NCBI GenBank assembly: GCA_025929855.1
Contig: JAICPK010000001.1
Location: 1-29,196, forward strand
Direction: 5' to 3'
From: Nitrososphaera sp.
GTDB taxonomy: Archaea > Thermoproteota > Nitrososphaeria > Nitrososphaerales > Nitrososphaeraceae
Length of the DNA stretch: 29,196 nucleotides
Shown here: positions 5,861 through 27,735 of the stretch, one piece after another
How positions within the stretch are numbered: the stretch's first letter is position 1
Layout: the number at the start of each line of letters is the position of its first letter
Translations under genes and position numbers: made by a program
The notes under the pieces: model-generated
What the model saw: only the letters and a program-made list of their open reading frames with translations
The model's database searches: none
Told to the model about the DNA's origin: nothing

Positions 5861-6244
5861 TTACATTGCTATCAGCTTTACATGATCCATCTTTTTGTTT
5901 GATTGGAATTTTTTAGTCATATTCTTTATCTCTGCAGCTTCGCCTTTTAGCAAAAATATTTCAAGGCATCGGTCTCGATCTATCTTGTTGTGTATATGGG
6001 TAGTGATCAGTTTATCATAATCGTGCTGCATTTCTGTCACCTGATCGTCTGATTTTTCATCGTGTATTGCCAAAAGGACTGCAAAGAGTTCTCCATACAA
6101 ATCCTGCCTATCCTTTTCTTCTGCCAGAAGATTTCTGATGCCGGCTCTTACAATCTCGGATCTGCCAGAAAAGCCAAGGGCTTTCTGCAACTTGTCTATT
6201 TCTGTCAAGATATCGTTATTGAGCGAAATACTAACTATCGCCAA
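5861..6244 (-). CDS. nikR: NikR-family nickel/metal-responsive regulator
   Basis: Ribbon-helix-helix DNA-binding protein (residues 1-45, VSISLNNDILTEIDKLQ...GRSEIVRAGIRNLL) followed by an ACT-like metal-binding domain, 127 aa. The nickel ligands of NikR can be matched: His74 in EMQHD, His83 and His85 in THIH, and Cys93 in DRCLEI. The spacing from the second His of HxH to Cys is eight residues, two more than in the E. coli protein as I remember it, which could change metal preference. Family members bind DNA as tetramers when loaded with Ni(II). The gene is divergent from znuA, with only 92 bp between starts containing direct repeats, so it may control that transporter as well as itself. A minus-strand TATA box about 26 nt before the ATG supports this start. 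The true metal could be Ni, Zn, Co or Mn. Confidence 0.88.
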   Translation of the reverse strand: MAIVSISLNNDILTEIDKLQKALGFSGRSEIVRAGIRNLLAEEKDRQDLYGELFAVLLAIHDEKSDDQVTEMQHDYDKLITTHIHNKIDRDRCLEIFLLKGEAAEIKNMTKKFQSNKKMDHVKLIAM

Positions 6245-6261
6245 TGAGATGTATTATTATT

Positions 6262-6274
6262 AAGTTATTTATAA
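6262..6274 (-). promoter_or_regulatory. TATA box of the nikR-like gene
   Basis: On the minus strand this reads TTATAAATAACTT, centred about 26 nt before the ATG at 6244, so the mRNA is predicted to be leaderless. Confidence 0.5.
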
Positions 6275-6286
6275 GAGCTTCCATAT

Positions 6287-6320
6287 TTTTTAATAACAAA
6301 GGTATATATTTTTAATAACA
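6287..6320. promoter_or_regulatory. Putative operator: paired 12-bp direct repeats
   Basis: TTTTTAATAACA occurs exactly at 6287-6298 and again at 6309-6320, 22 bp start to start, or about two helical turns, so both copies face the same side of the DNA. The second copy overlaps the 3' edge of the znuA TATA box and the transcription start zone; the first lies where the BRE/TFB would bind. This is a good position for repression of znuA, and possibly of nikR, by the NikR-like protein or another metal regulator. Confidence 0.45.
6303..6313 (+). promoter_or_regulatory. TATA box of znuA
   Basis: TATATATTTTT is centred about 30 nt before the ATG at 6337. It partly overlaps the second operator-like repeat. 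Confidence 0.5.
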
Positions 6321-6336
6321 TGGAGAAAATAGCAGG

Positions 6337-7293
6337 ATGAATCAGAGCAGAGCAGCTCTTGCAGCCATTGCCACATTAATCCCACTTGCAATGATCGCCA
6401 CCGTACAGACTGGCAGGCCAGCTCTGCAAGATAGACAAGAGCAGGAAAAGATCACAGTTGTTGCGTCCTTTTATCCGCTTTACGAATTTGCTTCCAGGGT
6501 TGTTGGAGACAGGGCAGAAGTGTCAAGCCTTGTACCGGCTGGCGTAGAGCCACACGACTGGGAGCCTACAGCAGAGGATGTTTCAAGAGGACGCGCGGCC
6601 GATGTGTTGGTCATTAATGGTGCAGGTTTTGAAAGATGGGCAGATGACATAGAAGCCAAAGTTGTTGCTAACACTAGTGAAGGGATCGAATTTAATTATA
6701 AAGAAGGAAGGGAGGTGGGAGAGGATGAGCACAGGCATGGAGATGCCAGTGGTGGCGGAGGAGTAAATAATCCTCACATCTGGCTAGACCCAATTCTTGC
6801 AAAGCATCAGATAGACAAGATCCGCAATATGATGGCCAGCTCAGACCCGGTCAACGCAGATTATTACAATCAAAATGCTGACAGATTTACCGCAGAGCTT
6901 GACTCGCTTGATGCCTTTATCAGGTCAGAGCTAGCCGACTGTGACAAATCAGACTTTATAGCATTTCATGATGCATTTACTTACTTTTCAGAAAGGTATG
7001 GTCTGAGGCAGCACAGCATCCAGGGTGCTTCGCCGGAGGGGGAAATATTGCCGCAGACAATGCAGCAGATAATTGAGCTTGCAAACGAGTTTGACATTAA
7101 TATCATTTATTCAGAAGATTTGATCGACAGCAGGCTTGCAGATACAATTGCCAACGAGATTCCGGAAGGCAAGGTGTTAGTGCTGAGCCCAATTGAAGGT
7201 ATTGACAAAGGAGAACAGGCAGCAGGCATCGGATATATTGATAAGATGAAGCAGAATATTGCAAATCTAAAGGAGGGTCTAGAATGCAGATAG
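6337..7293 (+). CDS. znuA: Zinc/manganese ABC transporter substrate-binding protein
   Basis: Cluster A-I (ZnuA/TroA) metal-binding protein of 318 aa, the extracytoplasmic receptor of the transporter encoded by the next two genes. The N-terminus (1-24) is a hydrophobic signal/anchor without a lipobox Cys, so it is probably held in the membrane. Metal ligands expected in the family are visible: His73 in EPHDWEP, His147 in NPHIWLDP, His211 in AFHDAF and an acidic fourth ligand near YSED (260-261). Three histidines favour zinc over manganese. A short acidic/His loop (EDEHRHGD, 129-136) followed by a Gly run stands where ZnuA proteins carry their His-rich loop. The last 10 bases overlap znuC. Likely metal-regulated through the shared promoter with nikR. 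Nickel is a less likely substrate. Confidence 0.9.
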   Translation: MNQSRAALAAIATLIPLAMIATVQTGRPALQDRQEQEKITVVASFYPLYEFASRVVGDRAEVSSLVPAGVEPHDWEPTAEDVSRGRAADVLVINGAGFERWADDIEAKVVANTSEGIEFNYKEGREVGEDEHRHGDASGGGGVNNPHIWLDPILAKHQIDKIRNMMASSDPVNADYYNQNADRFTAELDSLDAFIRSELADCDKSDFIAFHDAFTYFSERYGLRQHSIQGASPEGEILPQTMQQIIELANEFDINIIYSEDLIDSRLADTIANEIPEGKVLVLSPIEGIDKGEQAAGIGYIDKMKQNIANLKEGLECR

Positions 7294-8030
7294 TCGAGAT
7301 CGACAGGCTCTCATATGCATATTCTGGTAACTTGGTTCTGGATAACATCTCGTTTACAATTGAGGAGGGAGACATACTTGGAATAATAGGCCCAAATGGA
7401 GCAGGCAAGACTACGCTTTTCAGCTGTATGCTAGGTCTGCTTGATGACTATACAGGCACAATAAAAATTCTTGGAGAGAACATTGAAAAGAAGAACAACA
7501 AAGTCTTCAAAAGTATAGGATACATACCACAAAAGAAAACAATTGAGCAGAACTTCCCCGCAACAGTTGAAGAAATTGTGTCACTTGGAGTCACCACTAC
7601 TGGTAAAACATCTAAGGAGAAAATAGCTTTGGCACTTGAAACAGCAGGTCTTTTTGCACAAAAAGATCGCAGAGTGGGCGAGTTGTCTGGCGGCCAGCAA
7701 CAGCGCGTATTGATAGCAAAGGCGATGGTGAACAATCCCAAGCTCTTGATACTAGACGAGCCAGTGACAGGCATCGATCTTGAAATGCAAAACAAGTTTT
7801 ATTCTCTTTTGCAAAAGCTGAATCAGGAGAATAACATCACCATAATCTGGGCATCGCACGACCTTGATGCAGTTAACAGGTTTGCCACCAGCGTGGCATG
7901 CATCAATCGCTCAATGTTCTTCCACGGCAAGACAATTGAATTCTTTGAAAATCCGGATCTCCTCAAGGCATATTCAGAATCGAGCATGCAAGCTCACATG
8001 CACCTACACAACCACACTTACAGAGGATGA
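7284..8030 (+). CDS. znuC: Zinc ABC transporter ATP-binding protein
   Basis: ABC ATPase of 248 aa that powers metal uptake. Walker A GPNGAGKT (36-43), signature LSGGQQQR (134-141), Walker B LLILDEP (154-160) and switch His192 are all intact, so it should be active. The C-terminus ends in a His-rich tail (AHMHLHNH), which may sense or buffer the metal. It overlaps znuA by 10 bp and is followed after 10 bp by the permease gene, so the three are translationally linked. Assignment to the zinc/manganese branch rests on the neighbours. Confidence 0.92.
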   Translation: MQIVEIDRLSYAYSGNLVLDNISFTIEEGDILGIIGPNGAGKTTLFSCMLGLLDDYTGTIKILGENIEKKNNKVFKSIGYIPQKKTIEQNFPATVEEIVSLGVTTTGKTSKEKIALALETAGLFAQKDRRVGELSGGQQQRVLIAKAMVNNPKLLILDEPVTGIDLEMQNKFYSLLQKLNQENNITIIWASHDLDAVNRFATSVACINRSMFFHGKTIEFFENPDLLKAYSESSMQAHMHLHNHTYRG

Positions 8031-8040
8031 GAGATAATAA

Positions 8041-8886
8041 ATGATTCTTGAAGTTTTGGAATTTGGGTTCATGCAGCGCGCTCTCATTGCAGGCGTTTCA
8101 GTGGCGATAACATCATCGGTGATCGGGTTGTTTCTTGTACTAAGACGCAATTCGCTCTTTGGAGATGCGCTCTCTCACGCCGCGTTTGGAGGCATAGCTG
8201 TAGGGCTTGCTACTAACATTTATCCTCTTTGGACTGGTCTGGCGCTTTCTATACTAGGAGCGTTGGGCATCACAAAGTTACGTCAGTATGCCAAGATACC
8301 GGCGGATGCGACTGTCGCCATATTGCTTTCGTCAGGCCTTGCGCTTGGCATATTACTTATAAGCCTATCAGGAGGGTTCACGCTTGACCTGTTCAGTTTT
8401 TTGTTTGGAAGCATCATGCTTGTCAGCGTAGAGGACACTCTTGCGATACTGGCAATGACTGGAATAATTCTGTCTATAATCATCCTCCTATATCGACAAC
8501 TGATGTACATCACATTTGATGAAGAGCAAGCGCGGGTTAGCGGCCTGCCAATTTCAAAGCTAAACTACCTTTTCATAATTCTTGCAAGTGTGGCAGTCAT
8601 TGTATCAATGAGGCTTGTCGGAATCCTACTTGTCTCGTCACTTTTGGTGATTCCAAATGTTACGGCGCTTTTGTTTAACAAAGGATTCAAGAAAACGGCT
8701 CTCATATCTGTGTCAATATCAATATTTTCAGTAGTGGCCGGTATCGCAATTTCATATGCTGCAAATCTGGCGCCTGCAGGAACAATAGTACTTGTCTCAA
8801 CTGCAGTATTTCTGACTGTCCTTGCAGCTAGGCATTATTCAAAAAAGAAGCAGGTAGTCAAAAAATTGGAAGAGGCTAGAAGCTAA
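8041..8886 (+). CDS. znuB: Zinc/manganese ABC transporter permease
   Basis: ABC-3 family permease of 281 aa with about eight hydrophobic helices. Typical features include the N-terminal stretch GVSVAITSSVIGLFLVLRR, the conserved FGDALSHAAFGG segment (residues 40-51) and the MRLVGILLVSSLLVIP segment that contacts the ATPase and lines the channel. It forms the membrane pore used by the znuA and znuC products. The C-terminus is Lys/Arg-rich and cytoplasmic. The 3' end overlaps the convergent winged-helix gene by 11 bp, leaving no room for a conventional terminator. Confidence 0.92.
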   Translation: MILEVLEFGFMQRALIAGVSVAITSSVIGLFLVLRRNSLFGDALSHAAFGGIAVGLATNIYPLWTGLALSILGALGITKLRQYAKIPADATVAILLSSGLALGILLISLSGGFTLDLFSFLFGSIMLVSVEDTLAILAMTGIILSIIILLYRQLMYITFDEEQARVSGLPISKLNYLFIILASVAVIVSMRLVGILLVSSLLVIPNVTALLFNKGFKKTALISVSISIFSVVAGIAISYAANLAPAGTIVLVSTAVFLTVLAARHYSKKKQVVKKLEEARS

Positions 8887-9454
8887 AATCTCCGCCACCA
8901 AAGTCTCCACCGAAATCAGCGCCGCCACCGCTGTCTGCTCCGGCACCACTGTCTTCGGCTCCTGCAGCGGATTCACCTGATTCCGCTGCTGTTCCGGATC
9001 CTTCGCCGCCTGCAAGACCACTCTCGGCAGGGGTCATTGCCATTCCCAACATCGATATCATGGACATAAAGAACACGGCATTCATGATACCGGAGAACAA
9101 CATCATCGGCATCCACATACGGTTATTGTCCATATAGCTTTGAAGCTGCTGCGTCTGGCCATTGCTTTGCCATTGTTGGATCTGCTGCATTTGCTTCTCC
9201 AGTTCCTGCTTTTTGGAGTTGAGCATCTGAAGCCCAGTGTGGCTGAGGGTCAGCTCTACCTTAATTCTAAGGAAACCTTTCTTTTCAGTGCGAATAACAA
9301 GCCTCTGTCCAATCAGATCATTTATGATTAGCTCAACTTCGGCCTTATCCAGACGAGTAACCTTGGCAATTTTGTCAAAAGACTTTACTCCTCTTCCAAT
9401 GGCGTCCAACACCATAAAGTGGTTAGGACTCTCATTGATTCTGACGCTTGACAT
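8876..9454 (-). CDS. Winged-helix protein with membrane segment and Gly/Ser-rich tail
   Basis: 192 aa from the chosen start. Order of parts: a winged-helix-like domain (about 10-75, HFMVLDAIGRGVKSFDKIAKVTRL...LIGQRLV), a short Gln/Lys-rich coiled coil (about 79-110), one strongly hydrophobic Met-rich membrane helix (about 113-140, MWMPMMLFSGIMNAVFF) and a tail almost entirely Gly, Ser, Ala, Glu and Asp ending FGGGDFSF. It would be a membrane-tethered DNA-binding protein, although the winged helix may serve protein contacts instead. The frame is open to ATG 9511, but a minus-strand TATA box at 9481-9487 lies 30 nt before ATG 9454, so I prefer that start. It is convergent with znuB. No named family is recognised. 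Confidence 0.75.
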   Translation of the reverse strand: MSSVRINESPNHFMVLDAIGRGVKSFDKIAKVTRLDKAEVELIINDLIGQRLVIRTEKKGFLRIKVELTLSHTGLQMLNSKKQELEKQMQQIQQWQSNGQTQQLQSYMDNNRMWMPMMLFSGIMNAVFFMSMISMLGMAMTPAESGLAGGEGSGTAAESGESAAGAEDSGAGADSGGGADFGGDFGGGDFSF

Positions 9455-9480
9455 TTCACTAGTAATATGCACAAAGCAGA

Positions 9481-9487
9481 ATTTAAA
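9481..9487 (-). promoter_or_regulatory. TATA box of the winged-helix membrane protein gene
   Basis: TTTAAAT on the minus strand is centred 30 nt before ATG 9454 and lies inside the longer frame that starts at 9511, so it decides for the shorter protein. Confidence 0.4.
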
Positions 9488-9614
9488 CTCTATTCTTAGA
9501 GGTTCTGTCACATCACAAGCTCATTCTTCTGCTGTAACAAGGTGTTCATCTCGGATTGATAGCCAGCAACAGCTATAACAGAAAGCGTTTTAATTATCAA
9601 ATAAGAAAAGTGGC

Positions 9615-9857: not shown

Positions 9858-12581
9858 CTAGCCGGAGCCACATCCACTAAAGCCACATTCGATGCACACA
9901 TTACATCCTTCGGTAATGATCAGTCTTGCATTGCACGTTGGGCACCGATCCTCTTGCATGTCTGTATGCTGTATGATGGCAGATATTGAAGCAGAATTCT
10001 TTGCCCCAGACTGCACTTCTTGAGGTGGAAGATCCATAGTTTCTGCAGCCTTTTCGTCTTCTAAGCCGGATTCTTTGAAGATCTTTTGCATCTGCTCCAG
10101 AACATAGGGTTCTTTAATACTGCTGAGTACATAATCGACTACATACTTGCTAGGCTTAACAGTAAATGCCCTTTGGCCGGTGTTTTGGCCAGTAATGTGA
10201 AGCACCTGCTCATGACGAGAACCATCTCTAAAGACTGTAACACCTTTTAATCCAAGCTCGTGGGATAGCAGATATGCACATTTGACGTCTTCTGCTGTCA
10301 CGTCTCCCGGCATATTGATAGTTTTCGCAATGGCGTTACTGATCCATTTCTGCCATGTAGCCTGAGCCATCACATGATCTGTCCAGTGTATGTCAATTGC
10401 GGTCACAAATATCTGCTGCATCCACTCAGGAATCTCGGATAAGCCGCGGATAGAACCATAGTTGTTTGCAATCTTGGTCAGTATTTCGTCAGAGTAGAGG
10501 CCGTTTTCTTTCAGCATGCTTTCAAACACCTTATCAGCGTAAAAGAAGCGTCCCACAGTCACACGCTTTTCATATACAAGCGCAAAGACTGGTTCCACAC
10601 CATTTGAAGTATCTGCGATCATTGAGAGGGTGCCGGTCGGGGCAATAGTGGAGGTCCACGAGTTACGTATTCCATGCTTCTTGATCTTTTCAATAAGCGT
10701 GTCCCAGTCGTATGTATGCGTCTCTCTTGGCAGTTCATAGTATCCTGCAACAGGTATTCGGCCCTTGACATAATCACTGTTCTTAAATAGTGGGAATGAT
10801 CCACGAGACTTTGCAATGGCTACACTTTCATCCATGCTCAAATATGATACAGCTTCTGCAAGCTTATTCATGAATTCATAGCCGTCTTTAGAATCATAGG
10901 GGATCTTGAGCAGGAACAACAGATCAGCAATGCCCATGATGCCAAGGCCTATTCTCCTTGTCTCCTTTGTCGCTACGTTGACTTCGTCTACAGGATACTT
11001 ATTCATGTCAATGACGTTGTCTAGGAATCTTGTAGCAAGTCTGATCGCCTGTTCGTAGCGCTGCCAGTCAAACTCGTATGCGCCATCAGCTTTACGTTTG
11101 ACAAAGTTTGCCAAGTTGATCGAGCCGAGATTGCATGATTCATAGGGATAGAGCGATTGTTCGCCACATGGATTTGTAGCACGCAGCGGACCACCTCTTG
11201 CTCCAATGAGTGGATTGTACTTGTTAATATTATCAAAGAATATTACTCCAGGTTCAGCGCTCTTCCACGCGCTCAATGCGATCAGATCTACAAGCTGCTG
11301 TGCGTCAATGTGCCTCATTGGCTCCTTCATCCTTGGACTGCGAAGAGGGTACTTGTGATTGCCATCCTTACTGACAAGTGCCTTCCAAAAGTCATCCCAG
11401 ATGCCGACACTTACATTAAAGTTCTCAAATACACCAGGCTTTGTCTTAGCTGTTACAAACTTTTCAATGTCTGGATGCCATGCCTCAATGATACCCATGT
11501 TGGCTCCACGGCGCTTGCCTCCCTGCTTGACGACATCGGTGATGGTGTCAATTATGCGCATAAACGATGTTGGCCCTGACGCAACGCCTGACGTCGATGC
11601 CACAATGTCGCCCTCCGGCCTCAGATCGGAGTAGTTTATGCCCACCCCGCCGCCCGACTTGAAGATCATGGCTGCATCAGTGGATGCTTTCATGATGCCT
11701 ACCATGTCATCGGGCATGTCAAGCACAAAGCATGCTGACAGTTGTCCAAGCTTTGCGCCGGAGTTCATCAGAGTAGGCGTATTTGGCAGATAATCCCGTG
11801 AAACCATCAGGTTGTAGTATTCTCTAACCCGCTCTTCATATTGTGCCATCTTGCCCTCTGCTATCATCCTAAGTAGATCCTTGAAGCTGATCTTCATTTG
11901 TCCCTGCTGTGCGCAGTAGATGTAGTGACGGATCATTGCTTCAAAATGGTACCTGTTCAGATAGTAGCTGCCAATGTGCAGCTTGTTGTCAAAGTCCTCT
12001 AGTTTGCCATAGTAGCGATTCGCTTCTTCAATGTTCTGGGTGTAGCCCCCTGCAGGGGTAAATATAGAAGAGTCATGCATTACGTCGGCAATTGCGACTA
12101 GGGTTGCAACCCTTTCAAACATTTGCTTGGGACCTTCAATGATCTCATTGTTGCTGTCGCGCAGCAAATACCGCGCAGCGAGTACTCTTAGGGAATTAAT
12201 GTCAAGAGCCTTATCAACTTCATCGAGATCCTTCTTGTTGAGGATCTTCATCTTCTCATCGCGCACTTTACGCCTTTCATGTCTGTAGAGTATGTAGGCC
12301 TTGGCTGTATCGGATAGCCCCTCTTCAATAAGTATGGACTCGACCATGTCCTGTGCGTCTTCTACACTTGGAATTGTCTTTTCGCTCTGCTGAACCATCT
12401 TTTGCACTACCTTTGCACCCAGCCGCTCAGCCAGAGGGTAATCAGGCTTGCCTGTTGCAACGAGTGCCTTGTATATTGCGTTTGAAATTTTGGACTGCTC
12501 AAAATGGACTATGCGTCCGTCACGTTTCCGTATCTTTGCAATTAGCGTTTCCTTATTATTAAATTCAGTAACTCCCGCCAT
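9858..12581 (-). CDS. nrdJ: Adenosylcobalamin-dependent (class II) ribonucleotide reductase
   Basis: Reduces ribonucleotides to deoxyribonucleotides for DNA synthesis using a B12-generated thiyl radical; no separate radical subunit is needed. 907 aa. An ATP-cone allosteric domain (about 14-105, IRKRDGRIVHFEQSKISNAI) precedes the catalytic barrel. Active-site residues are present: Asn470, Cys472 and Glu474 in NPCGEQ, and the redox pair Cys284 (LSACFVL) and Cys483 (ESCNLGS). The finger-loop GGGVGINYSDLRPEG (310-324) and TSTIAPTGTLS (643-653) are typical. The C-terminus is a Cys-rich ribbon (CPTC 880-883, CNVC 893-896, CGFSGC 899-904), which can bind zinc and shuttle electrons to the active site. 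A putative regulator with its own ATP-cone lies upstream. Class II identity rests on length, motifs and the C-terminal ribbon. Confidence 0.95.
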   Translation of the reverse strand: MAGVTEFNNKETLIAKIRKRDGRIVHFEQSKISNAIYKALVATGKPDYPLAERLGAKVVQKMVQQSEKTIPSVEDAQDMVESILIEEGLSDTAKAYILYRHERRKVRDEKMKILNKKDLDEVDKALDINSLRVLAARYLLRDSNNEIIEGPKQMFERVATLVAIADVMHDSSIFTPAGGYTQNIEEANRYYGKLEDFDNKLHIGSYYLNRYHFEAMIRHYIYCAQQGQMKISFKDLLRMIAEGKMAQYEERVREYYNLMVSRDYLPNTPTLMNSGAKLGQLSACFVLDMPDDMVGIMKASTDAAMIFKSGGGVGINYSDLRPEGDIVASTSGVASGPTSFMRIIDTITDVVKQGGKRRGANMGIIEAWHPDIEKFVTAKTKPGVFENFNVSVGIWDDFWKALVSKDGNHKYPLRSPRMKEPMRHIDAQQLVDLIALSAWKSAEPGVIFFDNINKYNPLIGARGGPLRATNPCGEQSLYPYESCNLGSINLANFVKRKADGAYEFDWQRYEQAIRLATRFLDNVIDMNKYPVDEVNVATKETRRIGLGIMGIADLLFLLKIPYDSKDGYEFMNKLAEAVSYLSMDESVAIAKSRGSFPLFKNSDYVKGRIPVAGYYELPRETHTYDWDTLIEKIKKHGIRNSWTSTIAPTGTLSMIADTSNGVEPVFALVYEKRVTVGRFFYADKVFESMLKENGLYSDEILTKIANNYGSIRGLSEIPEWMQQIFVTAIDIHWTDHVMAQATWQKWISNAIAKTINMPGDVTAEDVKCAYLLSHELGLKGVTVFRDGSRHEQVLHITGQNTGQRAFTVKPSKYVVDYVLSSIKEPYVLEQMQKIFKESGLEDEKAAETMDLPPQEVQSGAKNSASISAIIQHTDMQEDRCPTCNARLIITEGCNVCIECGFSGCGSG

Positions 12582-12628
12582 CCCAGATTGTATAGAAGAT
12601 TACAGGTTCTTAAAGATTGGGAGCCCAC

Positions 12629-12638
12629 ATCATATAAC
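12629..12638 (-). promoter_or_regulatory. Possible TATA box of nrdJ
   Basis: On the minus strand GTTATATGAT lies about 52 nt before the nrdJ ATG, which would give a leader of roughly 25 nt. A weaker alternative, CTTTAAG at about 12611-12617, would give a leaderless start. Partial inverted repeats (CCCA...TGGG) flank this area and could be an operator, but they are imperfect. Confidence 0.3.
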
Positions 12639-12853
12639 TTTTTTTGGCACTAAAAAATGAATGCAAATTACTACTCGAAAAATATATGAGATTTTTATGA
12701 AAATTCATCTAAAAGACGAATACATAAGTGCCACTTTGATAAGTAATGTGCATATAAGCTCTTGCGACAGAGCCTTAAACATGGCATAAGGTGCTCGCTT
12801 CAAGCATAATAGCAAAAAGCGCATAGCTGCAGTAGATGCTTGAGTAATCGCAG

Positions 12854-14938
12854 TTACAAATAGAGAGGCACTGTGTGAGGCGACTTGCAGAATTGGCATA
12901 TGTCCACACCTTCTTTTGAGCGCTGACCGCACGTTGTGCATAGTGCAAACCTAATACTGAGGCGCAGGAAGGGCAGCTCTTGTACAGTAGATTCTATTGC
13001 ACTTTTCATTTCTGCTGGCGACAGCTTTGTCAGGTCAAGCGTTGCTGTAAAGCCTCCATTCAGCAGCTTGTCAATTGCCAGACATTCTTGAATTGAAGCT
13101 TTGTCGTCATTAAGGATATCCCTCCCATTGAGTGTCATGCCTTGAGAATAGCTAGGGGTATTCTGCGATTGCAGAAGAGAGACCTTGCCATACTTCTCAG
13201 AATCTAGGGTAGCAAACCTTGACCCGCTGTCATCTGAAACCATTGCAATGCCAGCTCCTTCCTCTCCAAGCATCTTGCCCTGCCCGTTGGTCACTTCGGC
13301 AGCGGTCTTTAGCACTTTTTGAAGCACTTCACTAGAAGACTCTCCTAGTATGTTATACACTGATTCCCTAGTGCCAGTAAGGTTGACTGCTATGCTAGCT
13401 GTACTCATCTGCATCAACTGACTCACACTTGCAAGCGCAGGCATCATCCCCTTTTTGATATAGTCGACGATTATTTTTTTTCGGAGAGACATTGCAGCAA
13501 GCGATGGTTTTATCATGAGCGCAAGTTTGGCGCGGAAGTAAGTTTCATCCTTATTCGATTCATATGCAAGCCTTGGCAAGTTTATCGAAAGCAGATGGAG
13601 CGACATAGCAGCTGTAGCTTTGACGTCTGCCTTTTTGATGCCATTACTTGCACGCACCTTGTTGTTCCCAATAGAAATCATGCCTCCGCTTCGTACTGCT
13701 GCTATGATGTGGTCAAGGCTGTCCGTCATCCTGCCTGATAGTGAAAGGCCAAGCCGGGGCATGGGAGTATTATTGACATATTTCCTATAGCCATCCAAGA
13801 GTGCATTGAGCTGCTGGGCATCTAAGTTGTCAGTTTGCACTGCAATCGTAGTTACAGGTATACTGGCAGAATACGATGGGGCACCTGAAGAGGCCAGAAG
13901 CGCCCTTGCGAACCTAGAAGCAATGTCCTCTGGATCATTGACATTGTTAAGCAGCGCCGACACATAGCCTTCGAGCACAACTTCTGTTGATGCTTCTCTT
14001 GAAAGGAGCGAGACCAATGCTGGCAGGGTTGTGACAGCATCGTCAGAGCTTTTAATTGGAGGGATCCTAGCCATATTCAAGAATTTCCCTTTTAGATCCA
14101 AGCCGCCTCCCAGCTCTGACAGGTCAATGAATACAGTATCGGGCAGTAAACCCCACACAGGAGTATTAGAAATATTGATCTCGCCTGCCAGATGCATATC
14201 TGCAATGTCCTTTGGCAGCATGTTGAACAGTAAGTATTCAGAAAAAACCGCTCCAGCAGTCCTTGTCATGACATGCTCTATTCCGTTTCGGGCTGGCTCG
14301 TCTTGGGAAGAGAGCAGCTGAACAATATCTGAGGACGGGAGACCAAGCCGCGCTAGCTTGTTTCTATATTCCTCGTGGCCGTGCTCTATGAGAATAGAGT
14401 TGACGGTCTCACGTATGAGCGATGATGTGAGATAGGTTGTCTGGAACCTGTAAATCTTGTTCTCTACTTCTTCAGTGATCTTGTGGGCCTGCTCAAGCGG
14501 CAGATTGGCTTCCCTTACAAGTGATTGGATTATCTTGTGGGAATTGAACTCCTCAATGGTATGCTTGTTTGTCCTCACATACATCTTGCCACTCTCTATG
14601 ATTGAACGCTCCTCGATCTGGCGGGCAAGGCTCAGCACCAGTTTACCAAGGTTCGTGATAGTGTACCGACGCTCCGTCTTGTTGAGGGCAACCAGCAGCT
14701 GGCGAAGCAGCTTCCTCAGATGATAGGCAAACTTGCCAGACTCTTTCTTTGATTTAAAGCCCGCAAGAGCCTTTAGTTCCGAGTATGTTAGAGGTCCCTT
14801 TGCATTCAAAATTCGCAGAATGTCAATTCTGTTAGGGCTAGCCATAACAGAGAAAATCATCCTTACGCGCTTTGACGCGGATTCTAAAAGTCCAGCTTTC
14901 TTAGAATCTTTTTGATAATCAAAACTCGGTTGTTCCAT
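12854..14938 (-). CDS. HTH/ATP-cone protein with degenerate class III RNR-like body
   Basis: 694 aa. Order of parts: ArsR-like winged helix (about 20-105, SPNRIDILRILNAKGPLTYSELKAL), ATP-cone (about 118-200, VRTNKHTIEEFNSHKIIQSL), then a long region resembling anaerobic ribonucleotide reductase NrdD: SEYLLFNMLPKDIADMHLAGEI (233-254), SINLPRLAYES (451-461), TPSYSQG (594-600) and a four-Cys ribbon (Cys667, 670, 681, 684). The enzyme looks dead: the only cysteine outside the ribbon is Cys619, none lies in the finger-loop region, and the protein stops just after the ribbon where NrdD has its glycyl-radical domain. ATP-cones bind ATP/dATP, and the bacterial regulator NrdR also pairs a DNA-binding module with an ATP-cone. 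I infer a nucleotide-sensing transcription factor, possibly for the nrdJ gene just downstream on the same strand. Confidence 0.8.
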   Translation of the reverse strand: MEQPSFDYQKDSKKAGLLESASKRVRMIFSVMASPNRIDILRILNAKGPLTYSELKALAGFKSKKESGKFAYHLRKLLRQLLVALNKTERRYTITNLGKLVLSLARQIEERSIIESGKMYVRTNKHTIEEFNSHKIIQSLVREANLPLEQAHKITEEVENKIYRFQTTYLTSSLIRETVNSILIEHGHEEYRNKLARLGLPSSDIVQLLSSQDEPARNGIEHVMTRTAGAVFSEYLLFNMLPKDIADMHLAGEINISNTPVWGLLPDTVFIDLSELGGGLDLKGKFLNMARIPPIKSSDDAVTTLPALVSLLSREASTEVVLEGYVSALLNNVNDPEDIASRFARALLASSGAPSYSASIPVTTIAVQTDNLDAQQLNALLDGYRKYVNNTPMPRLGLSLSGRMTDSLDHIIAAVRSGGMISIGNNKVRASNGIKKADVKATAAMSLHLLSINLPRLAYESNKDETYFRAKLALMIKPSLAAMSLRKKIIVDYIKKGMMPALASVSQLMQMSTASIAVNLTGTRESVYNILGESSSEVLQKVLKTAAEVTNGQGKMLGEEGAGIAMVSDDSGSRFATLDSEKYGKVSLLQSQNTPSYSQGMTLNGRDILNDDKASIQECLAIDKLLNGGFTATLDLTKLSPAEMKSAIESTVQELPFLRLSIRFALCTTCGQRSKEGVDICQFCKSPHTVPLYL

Positions 14939-15042
14939 TACGCCTCATATCTAGATAAATGATTAAAACTACTTTGTAAAATGTTTTTAACTAATTGCAC
15001 GATCCAATCTATATTGCTCAATCGATTATTTGGTCGACCAGT

Positions 15043-15651
15043 CTAGCTTTCAACCAGTACCTGAGTCTTTTCAGTTGGTGCATCCTCTCGTTTTTGGGAC
15101 GGAATGTTAATTGGAACCTCTGGGAGCCTCGCTTTTGCCTCGTCCTCAAGTGCTCCTTCAATCTGGTTAAGGATTGAAAGGGCCTCTGTGTCCATGGGAG
15201 TCGAGATTCTGGCGTCTGCCTTGATATTTGCGTTAAGGAGCACGTCTGCAGTAACTGTTGAGACTTCCGAGAGTACTTCATTAGCGGCGGGAATGGCCCT
15301 AGTCAGATCCGTCTGGATACCTTTTATCATCTCAATTGTCGGATCTATAGTGTCAAGGATTGCAGCAAATTCGTTGATCGTACTGAAGCGTATCACTACT
15401 GCCTCAAGTGCAAGGCCAGTGTGTTGTGTGTTTCTTCGTAGGCGCCGCACATTGATCAGTTCGGTCGCAAGGATCTTTGCTCGGGCATTATTGCCTGTCT
15501 TAATGTTGGTAGCTATCTGCTCTAGAAAAGATGTCTCCATTGAGGCAAACTTTCTGTCAAGTAGCTTGAGGCGCCCAAGCTGGTTGTACACAACACCTGT
15601 CGCGTGGGTGATCTGGCTCATGAACTGCTGACGCTTCTCTCCTCCCGTCAT
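15043..15651 (-). CDS. cdvB: CdvB-family ESCRT-III-like protein
   Basis: 202-aa Snf7/ESCRT-III-like protein of the archaeal Cdv cell-division system. These proteins polymerise on the membrane at mid-cell and are remodelled by the Vps4-like ATPase CdvC. Seen here: long amphipathic helices from about 10 to 140 with a basic early part (QLGRLKLLDRKF, NVRRLRRNTQ) and an acidic later part, then a proline-rich motif RLPEVPINIP (175-184) resembling the MIM2 motif that docks on CdvC. The winged-helix domain that links Sulfolobus CdvB to CdvA is absent, so this is likely one of the CdvB paralogues. No other cdv gene is adjacent, which is common for thaumarchaeal cdv genes. A TATA box 24 nt before the ATG supports the start. 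Confidence 0.85.
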   Translation of the reverse strand: MTGGEKRQQFMSQITHATGVVYNQLGRLKLLDRKFASMETSFLEQIATNIKTGNNARAKILATELINVRRLRRNTQHTGLALEAVVIRFSTINEFAAILDTIDPTIEMIKGIQTDLTRAIPAANEVLSEVSTVTADVLLNANIKADARISTPMDTEALSILNQIEGALEDEAKARLPEVPINIPSQKREDAPTEKTQVLVES

Positions 15652-25008: not shown

Positions 25009-25021
25009 TTATTATTATTAT
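25008..25021. repeat. Short ATT trinucleotide repeat
   Basis: Four perfect ATT units plus a partial fifth abut the hisF stop codon, right next to the TATA box of the downstream gene. Slippage here could alter promoter context. Confidence 0.6.
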
Positions 25022-25827
25022 CATACCCTGATCTTGATACCATTTCTCTTTAGGTATTTTTTTACCTTATCGACTGTTGACTTTTCGTAGTGGAATATCG
25101 ATGCGGCCAGGGCGGCGTCAACATCTGTTTTTTTAAATACGTCGAGCATGTGGCGGGCCTTTCCGCAGCCGCCAGAGGCAATTACAGGTACAGGCACTGA
25201 TTTGCATATAGACTTTGTCAGCTCGATGTCATAGCCATTTTCAGTGCCGTCAGCATCAATGCTTGTAAGTAATATTTCGCCTGCCCCACGCTGCTCAACT
25301 TCTTTGGCCCATTTGATGGCATCAAGCCCTGTTCTTTCTTTGCCGCCATAGATCCTGACCTCAAACCAAAATTTCCTTTCATCCTTATCCTTGAATACCG
25401 TCTTATCTTTTTTAACATTGTAATTTCTCTTTGCATCTATTGCTACTACAATACACTGTTTGCCAAAGATCGACATTAGCTTTGATATCAATTCAGGGCT
25501 CTTGACCGCGGCAGTGTTGACCGAGACCTTATCTGCGCCAGAAAGCAGTATGTCGCGTGCGTCCTCGAGCTTTTTGATACCGCCACCAACTGTGAATGGT
25601 ATGTCGATGACTCCTGCCACCTTTCTCACGATGCTTGCTATTGTGTCCCTTCCCTGCTGCGACGCTGTGATGTCAAGGAATACTAACTCGTCAGCTCCTT
25701 GCTCGCGATATTTTTTGCCAAGCTCGACTGGGTCACCGGCGTCCTTGACCTCGGTAAAATGCACTCCCTTGACGACTCTGCCATTGTCGACATCAAGACA
25801 AGGGATTATTCTTTTAGCAAGTGTCAT
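25021..25827 (-). CDS. hisF: Imidazole glycerol phosphate synthase, cyclase subunit
   Basis: (beta/alpha)8 barrel of 268 aa. With HisH it turns PRFAR plus ammonia into imidazole glycerol phosphate and AICAR, the fifth step of histidine synthesis. Catalytic Asp12 ([14 protein letters not shown]) and Asp131 (VAIDAKRN) are present, as are the phosphate-binding loops VGGGI (80-84) and ASGGCGK. The length is slightly above average because of a charged insert after Asp131 ([17 protein letters not shown]). The ATG overlaps the hisA stop by one base (TAATG). It is last in the his operon. Confidence 0.97.
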
Positions 25828-26525
25828 TATGCTAGTGCCTTCACCTTTTGGATGCTCACTTTGCCGTCGTACATCGCTTTTCCAATTATGACAGAACTAC
25901 AGCCGGCGCTTCTAATCTTTATCACATCTTCTATACTTGAGATCCCACCGCTTGCAATTATTCTTGCGGATACAGCGGCGTCTGCCAATGTTTTGATATC
26001 AGGACCTTGCAATGTACCATCACGATCGATACTTGTCAGCAAAAATTCATCAACACCTATTGCAAGAAATTGCGATATTGCGTCTGCTACTGTTGTTCCA
26101 GTAGACTCTTTCCACCCTTTCACCATAACCATACCGTCCATCTGATCTACTGAAATTGTCACTCTGTCTGCATTCTTCTTGACAAGCTTCCTTACGACCT
26201 CCGGATCTCTATAAGCCATAGTACCAATCACAACCCTTGATGCCATTGAGAGCATTTCTTCAGCTTTTTCTAATGATCTAATGCCGCCTGCGATCTGCAG
26301 AGGGATCCTTACTGCTTGAGATATCTTTGCGATGAGTTCAGAATTACTGCCAGTCGAAAATGCTGCGTCAAGGTCAACTATATGCAGCATGTCGGCGCCG
26401 ACACTCTCCCACTTTCTTGCAGTTTCAACAGGATCATTGCTATATTCTATCTTGTCATCAGGATTCCCCCTGACAAGCCTGACGACGCTTCCGCCCATGA
26501 TGTCAACTGCGGCTAGGACCTTCAT
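25827..26525 (-). CDS. hisA: ProFAR isomerase
   Basis: Phosphoribosylformimino-5-aminoimidazole carboxamide ribotide isomerase, a (beta/alpha)8 barrel of 232 aa that opens the ribose ring of ProFAR to PRFAR. Catalytic Asp8 ([13 protein letters not shown]) and Asp127 (ISVDQMDG) are kept, with phosphate loops AGGIR (79-83) and ASGGIS. The frame is open to ATG 26543, but ATG 26525 overlaps the hisH stop as ATGA and places the first strand at residue 1, so I choose it. Confidence 0.95.
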
Positions 26526-27142
26526 TTCGCTTCTTTTTTGCACAATCCGATAAAGTTCCTTATCATAAGTGCACCAACATCGCCGGACTTTTCTGGATGA
26601 AACTGGACACCGATTAGATTATCCTTTTCAATCATCCCTGGGATGCTGACACCATACTCAGAAGTCGCCACTACTAACTTATGGTCCTTTGGTACGGTCT
26701 TGTAAGAATGCACAAAATATACCCAGGACTGATCCTTGACTCCTTTTAGCAGCTTGCTCTCGCCTTTTATTTGAAGATTGTTCCATCCCATGTGAGGAAT
26801 CTTGACCTTTCCCTTTGGGAGCATTACAACCTCGCCATCCAATATCTTCAATCCTTCCAGTCTCCCTTCTTCACTCTTATTAAAGAGTATCTCCATGCCA
26901 AGGCAGATTCCCAACAACGGCATACAATTGTCAATGGCTTTATCAAGATAGCTTGCACTACTCTCTATTGATCTGATTGCAGGATCAAAGTTACCAACAC
27001 CAGGAAGCACCAGCCCATCAAATTTTGTCAGTTCTTTTAAATCGTAGATTATGTCAACACTTTCTGTTCCGTTGCGCTTAAGTGCAGACTTGAGGCTGAA
27101 GAGGTTGCCTGCGCCATAGTCAAAAATTGCTATTTTTGTCAT
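26522..27142 (-). CDS. hisH: Imidazole glycerol phosphate synthase, glutaminase subunit
   Basis: Class I glutamine amidotransferase of 206 aa that releases ammonia from glutamine and channels it through the HisF barrel. The triad is complete: Cys80 (LLGICLGME), His182 and Glu184 (VQFHPEKSG). The N-terminus MTKIAIFDYGAGN is typical. The ATG overlaps the hisB stop by 4 bp and the stop overlaps the hisA ATG by 4 bp, so all three are translationally coupled. Confidence 0.97.
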   Translation of the reverse strand: MTKIAIFDYGAGNLFSLKSALKRNGTESVDIIYDLKELTKFDGLVLPGVGNFDPAIRSIESSASYLDKAIDNCMPLLGICLGMEILFNKSEEGRLEGLKILDGEVVMLPKGKVKIPHMGWNNLQIKGESKLLKGVKDQSWVYFVHSYKTVPKDHKLVVATSEYGVSIPGMIEKDNLIGVQFHPEKSGDVGALMIRNFIGLCKKEAK

Positions 27143-27735
27143 TGCATAGCCCCCTTGGTACTTGGCACGCCCTGCCTTTTGCTGTCGATATTAGTGGCCA
27201 TCCTAAGTGCTACTGCAAACGCCTTGAGCGCTGCTTCAACCTTATGATGATCATTTTCACCATAGTAGACTGCCATATGAGTACATGCATTTAGATTCTG
27301 CAGCAATGATCTTGTAAAATGCTCAAGATCTTCTCTTGGTACTCCCTCAATACTATCGCGGGTAAGTTTCAGCTGTACGTTGTAGTATTGTCGCTTGACT
27401 AAGTCGATCGATACGTACGCCAGTGCTTCGTCCATCGGGACAAGTGCATAGCCAAATCGTGTGATCCTTGTCCTATCACCCAGCGCTTTGTCTATGCTTT
27501 GCGCCAATGCAATAGCAACATCTTCTGCTAAGTGATGTACGATGCCATCGTTTGACTTGCCATTGAGGGTTATGTCGATCATAGCATGCTTGCCGATTGA
27601 CATGATCAGGTGGTCGATGAAGGAAAGATGCGTCTTGATGCGGGTCTTACCAGTGCCATCGAGATTAACGTTAACACTTACCTCCGTCTCCTTTGTGACC
27701 CTCTCAATCCTCGCTTTTCTTCCGGCAGAAGCCAA
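27139..27735 (-). CDS. hisB: Imidazoleglycerol-phosphate dehydratase
   Basis: Mn-dependent dehydratase of the histidine pathway, making imidazole acetol phosphate; 198 aa, monofunctional (no fused phosphatase). Metal and active-site motifs: DH (41-42), HHLAED (67-72), and NDHHKVEA (161-168). The first motif reads HHLAED rather than the common HHTVED. The N-terminus ARIERVTKETEVSV matches the family, so ATG 27735 is right even though it lies 58 bp inside the end of the upstream HAD gene in another frame. Since HisB here lacks a phosphatase domain, a separate histidinol-phosphate phosphatase is required. Confidence 0.95.
   Translation of the reverse strand: MASAGRKARIERVTKETEVSVNVNLDGTGKTRIKTHLSFIDHLIMSIGKHAMIDITLNGKSNDGIVHHLAEDVAIALAQSIDKALGDRTRITRFGYALVPMDEALAYVSIDLVKRQYYNVQLKLTRDSIEGVPREDLEHFTRSLLQNLNACTHMAVYYGENDHHKVEAALKAFAVALRMATNIDSKRQGVPSTKGAMQ

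Follow-up and report, generated by a model that had tools for sequence, protein, structure and literature searches.

Gene content of the locus

The window, by which we mean the whole stretch of 29,196 nucleotides of Nitrososphaera sp. DNA that was analysed, carries a gene for a 694-aa protein in which a predicted winged helix, an ATP-cone and a body resembling the class III (anaerobic) ribonucleotide reductase (RNR) NrdD are joined in a single chain (Table 1). The open reading frame, noticed in a first-pass annotation of the letters alone, was confirmed as real, and a plus-strand reading of the same interval was ruled out by stops throughout. The proposed three-part make-up held as well: the Pfam matches to DUF7347/HTH_20, to the ATP-cone and to NRDD (residues 440-687) all exceeded their curated cut-offs (for the cone, PF03477, 41.9 bits versus 25.8), and the three domains were all present in 51/51 aligned family members. 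The NCBIfam model of NrdD scored 50.2 bits on the protein, far under its cut-off of 326.35. Structure comparison revealed the RNR barrel fold of NrdD, and the whole-chain structure alignments began at residue 117-121, in the cone region, so that the cone fold is backed by these alignments and by the Pfam match. The N-terminal part modelled alone gave a mean pLDDT of 58.2, too poor for use, a sequence search of solved structures with the fusion returned weak matches at most, and the match between the winged helix and the ArsR chain 6uvu was weak (E 0.23).

Table 1. Features of the fusion gene and its immediate surroundings (positions in the window)
Feature	Position	Strand	Remark
nrdJ, class II RNR with its own ATP-cone	9858..12581	-	907 aa
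Fusion-nrdJ intergenic gap (nrdJ promoter region)	12582..12853	-	without a copy of the GTTAAAAACATTTTAC repeat
Gene for the winged helix, ATP-cone and dead NrdD fusion	12854..14938	-	694 aa
NrdD-type barrel, residues 213-694	12857..14302	-	without NxN flap, catalytic cysteines and glycyl radical
Four-cysteine zinc ribbon	12887..12940	-	C667 C670 C681 C684
ATP-cone, residues 119-191	14366..14584	-	Pfam
Winged helix-turn-helix (DUF7347/HTH_20), residues 28-102	14633..14857	-	Pfam
Inverted repeat GTTAAAAACATTTTAC	14976..14991	-	candidate own operator, 54 bases before the start codon
CdvB/ESCRT-III-like gene	15043..15651	-	directly upstream of the fusion

The cysteines of the fusion are exactly 619, 667, 670, 681 and 684, and thus, as annotated before, a single one (Cys619) lies outside the zinc ribbon. 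Cys619 is not invariant; the four ribbon cysteines are (14 diverse members aligned). The ribbon is C-terminal and aligns with the zinc ribbon of NrdD, and 10 residues separate it from the end of the chain.

Elsewhere in the window, nrdJ is followed downstream by a same-strand gene for a second winged-helix protein (8876-9511, with a weak match to MarR_2 / PF24409). A small CopG-like regulator is encoded next to what appears by eye to be a metal ABC transporter operon (5861-8886). A histidine biosynthesis cluster was recognized by eye at 25021-27735. The cell-division gene (CdvB/ESCRT-III-like, 15043-15651) adjoins the DNA-precursor genes.

Distribution and phylogeny of the family

In a draw of 398 genomes of the phylum, 264 matched the fusion at 1e-5, matches to plain NrdD or to the cone included. 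All 74 Nitrososphaerales rows were among them, a few of these with a split or incomplete copy, and the fusion is therefore not a product of chance; when the non-matching genomes are listed in order of kinship, the first ones lie outside the Nitrososphaerales. For 64 genomes of other families, picked among those matching at 1e-5, the best profile match begins in the winged helix, except in one genome (G142) where the copy is cut by the contig end. The names among the matches include Bathyarchaeota, Geothermarchaeota, Methanomethylicia and Nitrososphaeria, and among the weaker family matches one is named Hodarchaeota and has no Pfam match to the cone. An unrooted maximum-likelihood tree of 48 rows, in which several fusion rows form long branches, contains a branch (100/99) that splits 17/17 canonical NrdDs from 31/31 fusions. 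The fusions form one coherent family that is both wide and old.

The chain measures about 590-650 aa in some lineages and ends before the zinc ribbon in the very short members L213-L218. The winged helix and cone persist and the body erodes in some lineages. The frames of L213-L217 (615-718 aa) share 7 bases with the end of a gene on the opposite strand, which by eye resembles one for a nascent-chain-binding protein.

Loss of the catalytic motifs

The first-pass annotation had read the body as a retired class III RNR, with no cysteine in the finger loop and no glycyl-radical domain after the ribbon, and the alignments bear this out. The fold is kept; lost in the fusion, as compared with canonical NrdDs of related genomes, are the NxN flap, the cysteine of TRPFC, the finger-loop CC pair (found as SQCCRL, SMCCRL or CYQCCA in the canonical NrdDs aligned) and the glycyl motif RVTGY/RVVGY, all of which are retained by the canonical NrdDs aligned alongside. 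The CC pair, the TRPFC cysteine, an aligned NxN flap and R-x-x-G-Y were absent in the 24 fusions of one alignment set and in the 14 of another (counts that skip the regions lost from the cut copy L178), and the 694-aa fusion has no aligned NxN flap either. Among 117 complete ammonia-oxidizer copies none had CC within residues 300-560 or R-(V/I/T)-x-G-Y in the last 120 residues, and all 117 had two CxxC, with 6-15 residues after the last of them. Neither a catalytic Cys nor a radical Gly is thus conserved in the 694-aa protein. A frameshift or sequencing error that hides the glycyl-radical domain was considered and rejected, because the three frames downstream contain no such motif; the 117 relatives end alike. 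On these motifs, the 694-aa fusion is predicted not to be a functional NrdD. The further suggestion that the dead body senses substrate has become less likely, because the NxN flap, which lies over the substrate in NrdD as described in the cited text (PMC11226230), is lost.

Some relatives have lost less of the catalytic motifs. A single cysteine is found at or beside the second position of the CC pair in L064, L070 and L039 and near the finger-loop CC position in L057 and L059, a glycine that is not followed by Tyr occupies the radical place in L044 and L039, and an N-V-N lies close to the flap position in L062. L039 retains most, with its lone cysteine and glycine and without flap, TRPFC cysteine or GY, and is nearest to a missing link between enzyme and fusion. 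Its gene (L039:9351-11657), with the lone cysteine in the finger-loop region and the glycine at the radical place, possibly represents an intermediate stage of loss. A still-catalytic NrdD fused to a helix-turn-helix was sought among the divergent members, of which L182 and L044 proved to lack the cysteines.

The genomes that carry the fusion were also searched for the enzyme itself. None of the 95 rows of the 398-genome draw that matched canonical NrdD (E up to 1e-60) belongs to the Nitrososphaerales, and NrdJ is listed for all 74 Nitrososphaerales rows. The model of NrdG2 (TIGR02495) exceeded its cut-off in 0/61 Nitrososphaerales genomes (45 of which had weak matches at the level of radical SAM proteins in general) and in just 2/14 control genomes; it did so in 11/12 NrdD-bearing relatives, the twelfth (G004) scoring 128.5 versus 131.15.

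Genomic association with ribonucleotide reductase genes

The position directly upstream of nrdJ on the same strand, pointed out earlier for this locus, was confirmed (272 bases separate the two genes) and recurs in 105/120 ammonia-oxidizer loci, where the nrdJ match starts 90-589 bases away; the 120 loci do not equal 120 independent genomes, some being included twice. In 12 of the 120 the contig ends less than 600 bases past the fusion, and the linkage therefore amounts to 105 of 108 evaluable loci. In the other three (L086, L087 and L096) nrdJ is missing despite sufficient room. In two soil Nitrososphaeraceae among these a convergent gene, nuclease-like by eye, follows the fusion and not nrdJ (L087:6284-7015 and L086:8245-8979).

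Outside the ammonia oxidizers the association with RNR genes holds in part. Among 26 loci of other lineages, drawn from the best-scoring ones, an RNR gene is next downstream on the same strand in 8, and no RNR gene adjoins the fusion in 18. The adjoining gene encodes an NrdD of type 1 in L032, L033, L036, L064 and L066, of type 2 in L045 and of type 3 (typed by motif) in L070, and a TSCPD-bearing NrdJ in L065, the one positive case of nrdJ linkage outside the ammonia oxidizers; 24/24 usable nrdJ loci of other lineages (L151-L170 and L183-L186) contained no fusion in the stretch fetched. A type 2 NrdD also lies beside the fusion in L174-L178, loci that were chosen for a nearby NrdD and of which L178 has its winged helix cut off. 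In four loci a short gene is found between the fusion and the RNR gene, and the one tested (L066) matched the Pfam glutaredoxin family. In two further families a gene for dCTP deaminase lies downstream of the fusion (L199:3797-4357 and L204:883-1458), the frames starting 1 and 74 bases after it. The fusions of L064 and L070 are near-identical (tree branches of 0.025 and 0.023), and their adjoining NrdDs differ in type. Since NrdD types, NrdJ and dCTP deaminase all occur as partners, the linkage, in the loci that have it, is to the function of DNA-precursor synthesis and not to one protein, and the change of partner RNRs while the fusion stays supports the idea of a regulator.

Promoter elements and selection

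Promoter patterns were picked after looking at the promoters and the shuffle figures given with them are not significance tests: GTNAA-N6-TTTAC was found in 34/38 distinct Nitrososphaeraceae fusion promoters (shuffle mean 0.08), and T(C/A)AA-N5-TTGA in 37/64 Nitrosopumilaceae nrdJ promoters (shuffle mean 2.9) and in 26/47 loci unseen beforehand (shuffle mean 2.0). The former sits 53-55 bases before the ATG in 33 of the 34 matching promoters, distances that rest on script-picked start codons. The extended repeat has one exact copy, the fusion's own, in the 65% complete genome that carries the window, and with up to one mismatch it gave 14 matches in this genome versus 20 in a reversed control, hence no enrichment. 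Further elements in the Nitrosopumilaceae are TATGAA-N-TTCATA in 36/64 nrdJ promoters and GTCA-x-AA-x-TCTTA-x-TTA in 58/66 fusion promoters, which may simply be the TATA region. A shared motif of fusion and nrdJ promoters, proposed as a check earlier, was found in neither the Nitrososphaeraceae nor the Nitrosopumilaceae, where lineage-specific elements occur instead. The promoter repeat is evidence for autoregulation at most, and the absence of a common motif in these two families speaks against a simple single-box model for nrdJ.

A common theme GTNA-Nn-TNAC was considered and not relied on: it is weak, its spacing differs per promoter class (n = 8 in 34/38, 10 in 47/66 and 7 in 20/64) and it was not found in Nitrososphaeraceae nrdJ promoters. 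A palindrome-like CGATCATCG occurs between fusion and nrdJ in 38/72 Nitrosopumilaceae loci (L105, L112 and others) and in none of the fusion promoters.

In nine pairs, for some of which dS is near saturation, dN/dS amounted to 0-0.014 for the winged helix, 0-0.09 for the cone and 0.07-0.17 for the body, and to 0.047-0.078 for nrdJ in the eight pairs that were computable. Conservation of the winged helix thus exceeds that of NrdJ, and alignment columns 24-123 are mostly invariant in 27 sequences. A frozen winged helix on a conserved pseudoenzyme would be the pattern expected of a regulator.

Proposed function and alternatives

We consider it rather probable that the fusion descends from an archaeal class III RNR and acts as a transcription regulator, controlling its own promoter and the neighbouring gene for DNA-precursor synthesis. 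The conversion would have happened most simply once: the enzyme part would have lost catalysis and kept barrel, zinc ribbon and ATP-cone, and an N-terminal winged helix would have been gained. The barrel would provide a dimer and perhaps larger assemblies; adenine nucleotides or dNTPs may bind the cone and/or the former specificity site at the dimer interface, and such binding would alter the assembly and thereby set whether the paired winged helices hold DNA. The target next to the fusion would be nrdJ in ammonia oxidizers and nrdD or the dCTP deaminase gene in some relatives. DNA binding, ligands and sign of control are what we infer here, as are a dimer formed via the barrel and the role of the cone, and perhaps of the former specificity site, as nucleotide sensor. 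The RNR-regulator idea is the best available reading, now more widely supported.

An ordinary protein that has been misread, either an active NrdD whose residues are unusual or a pseudogene in decay, is hardly credible. Many family members are indeed named 'anaerobic ribonucleoside-triphosphate reductase' by their sources, a lone cysteine or glycine is kept in a few relatives, and the lack of a cysteine would by itself be no proof that catalysis is lost, because an NrdD of Thermotoga is described as having no pre-positioned radical cysteine (PMC4493059). However, the CC pair and the glycyl motif are absent together in 117/117 copies, flap and TRPFC cysteine are lost, NrdG2 stays under its cut-off in 61/61 genomes (with only 2/14 control genomes over it), and purifying selection and presence in 74/74 genomes do not fit decay. 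Control of pyrimidine synthesis instead of RNR was suggested by the frequent presence of pyrB, often with pyrI beyond, in the anaerobic relatives: of the 26 non-ammonia-oxidizer loci, 20 have pyrB within the stretch fetched and 12 have it just 3-28 bases downstream of the fusion, and pyrB or pyrI was also seen by eye after the fusion in L191-L193, L200, L201 and L205-L207. Yet 19 of the 20 genes are on the other strand, so that fusion and pyrB stand tail-to-tail without a common promoter, and the ammonia-oxidizer loci carry nrdJ in place of pyrB. Moreover, pyrB seems to be a relic left after nrdD moved away, since the order in L033, L064, L066 and L070 is fusion, nrdD and then pyrB; we regard pyrimidine control as improbable.

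Two other alternatives accept a regulator and differ in what it acts on. In one, the fusion is an autoregulator with a protein partner, the dead body binding an active RNR or RNR assembly factor and the winged helix serving mainly the own promoter. Purifying selection on the barrel (dN/dS of 0.07-0.17), where a sensor might need the cone alone, would fit this, as would the NrdD neighbours available for pairing in several lineages and the promoter repeat whose only exact copy in the 65% complete genome is the fusion's own. But no NrdD was found in ammonia oxidizers (0/95 matching rows), where NrdJ is of another class, and three NrdD types and two NrdJ kinds as partners speak against one tight interface; of the alternatives to the RNR regulator this is the least unlikely, though we doubt it. 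In the other, the fusion is a broader regulator, for instance of cell division or replication, that has RNR among its targets and a winged helix kept near-invariant by many binding sites. Its conservation beyond that of NrdJ (columns 24-123 in the 27 sequences) and the ESCRT-III-like gene, which lies beside the fusion, directly upstream, in 38/120 ammonia-oxidizer loci, would agree with such a role, against which stands the lack of enrichment, in the 65% complete genome, of the sole promoter repeat that could be recognised. We judge this unlikely too, a shade more so than the protein partner and a shade less so than pyrimidine control.

To our knowledge, the control of RNR expression in most archaea is an open question, and the proposed regulator of the own promoter and the neighbouring DNA-precursor gene is a testable candidate, with a family present in 74/74 Nitrososphaerales genomes, among them ammonia oxidizers that are central to the nitrogen cycle. 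It would be a case of an enzyme that came to regulate what replaced it. The family also explains why genes named for an anaerobic reductase occur in aerobic archaea that yielded no canonical NrdD. More tentatively, and with less confidence than in the regulator as such, an ancient archaeal lineage may have kept the cone and the effector dimer interface as a multi-nucleotide sensor of the dNTP pool that drives whichever RNR is present. If true, the sensor could have remained in place as the RNR itself (NrdD types, NrdJ) was exchanged when oxygen use rose. In Nitrosopumilus under peroxide, the relative abundance of RNR protein was high, as given in the cited text (PMC6593220).

Comparison with known systems

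The search for publications, by title and the start of the abstract and with subscription journals mostly outside its scope, yielded none showing a winged helix, cone and dead NrdD fusion, which does not prove novelty. The closest known system is the bacterial repressor NrdR, of which the first-pass annotation had considered the fusion an archaeal analogue. Both join a DNA-binding domain (predicted in the fusion) to an ATP-cone and are linked to RNR genes; the RNR genes to which NrdR is linked are described as belonging to more than one class, with an nrdRJ promoter in Streptomyces (PMC9110341). The fusion differs from NrdR in having an N-terminal winged helix in place of the N-terminal zinc ribbon and in carrying a whole dead NrdD body. 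The nucleotide contacts given for NrdR are V48, K50, R51, E56 and K62, K50 and R51 contacting phosphate (PMC9110341). Mapped by spacing, V121, E129 and K135 of the fusion match V48, E56 and K62, whereas T123 and N124 stand at the places of K50 and R51, where the family cones have, by the same mapping, Thr and Asn/Ser; VRTS is also found in most of the type 2 NrdDs aligned. As equivalents of K50 and R51 are lacking, the ligand may differ from that of NrdR. The analogy is thus upheld by cone and RNR linkage and weakened by the want of a common operator and of these two residues. A 2009 database held 6 archaeal versus 1268 bacterial NrdR entries (PMC2795772), and the archaeal NrdRs among the entries tabulated in another source belong to haloarchaea with class I RNR (PMC3019208). 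The fusion is not a member of NrdR and, by its position and parts, would work like an RNR regulator.

With NrdD the fusion shares the barrel fold, the ATP-cone ahead of the barrel and the C-terminal zinc ribbon; in contrast to NrdD, it lacks the NxN flap, the CC pair, the TRPFC cysteine and the glycyl-radical domain and has an added N-terminal winged helix. This winged helix, matched above cut-off, is what it has in common with ArsR-like regulators (DUF7347, HTH_20), from which it differs in that the winged helix is joined to a cone and a dead reductase, in what is likely a home-grown regulator of DNA-precursor supply.
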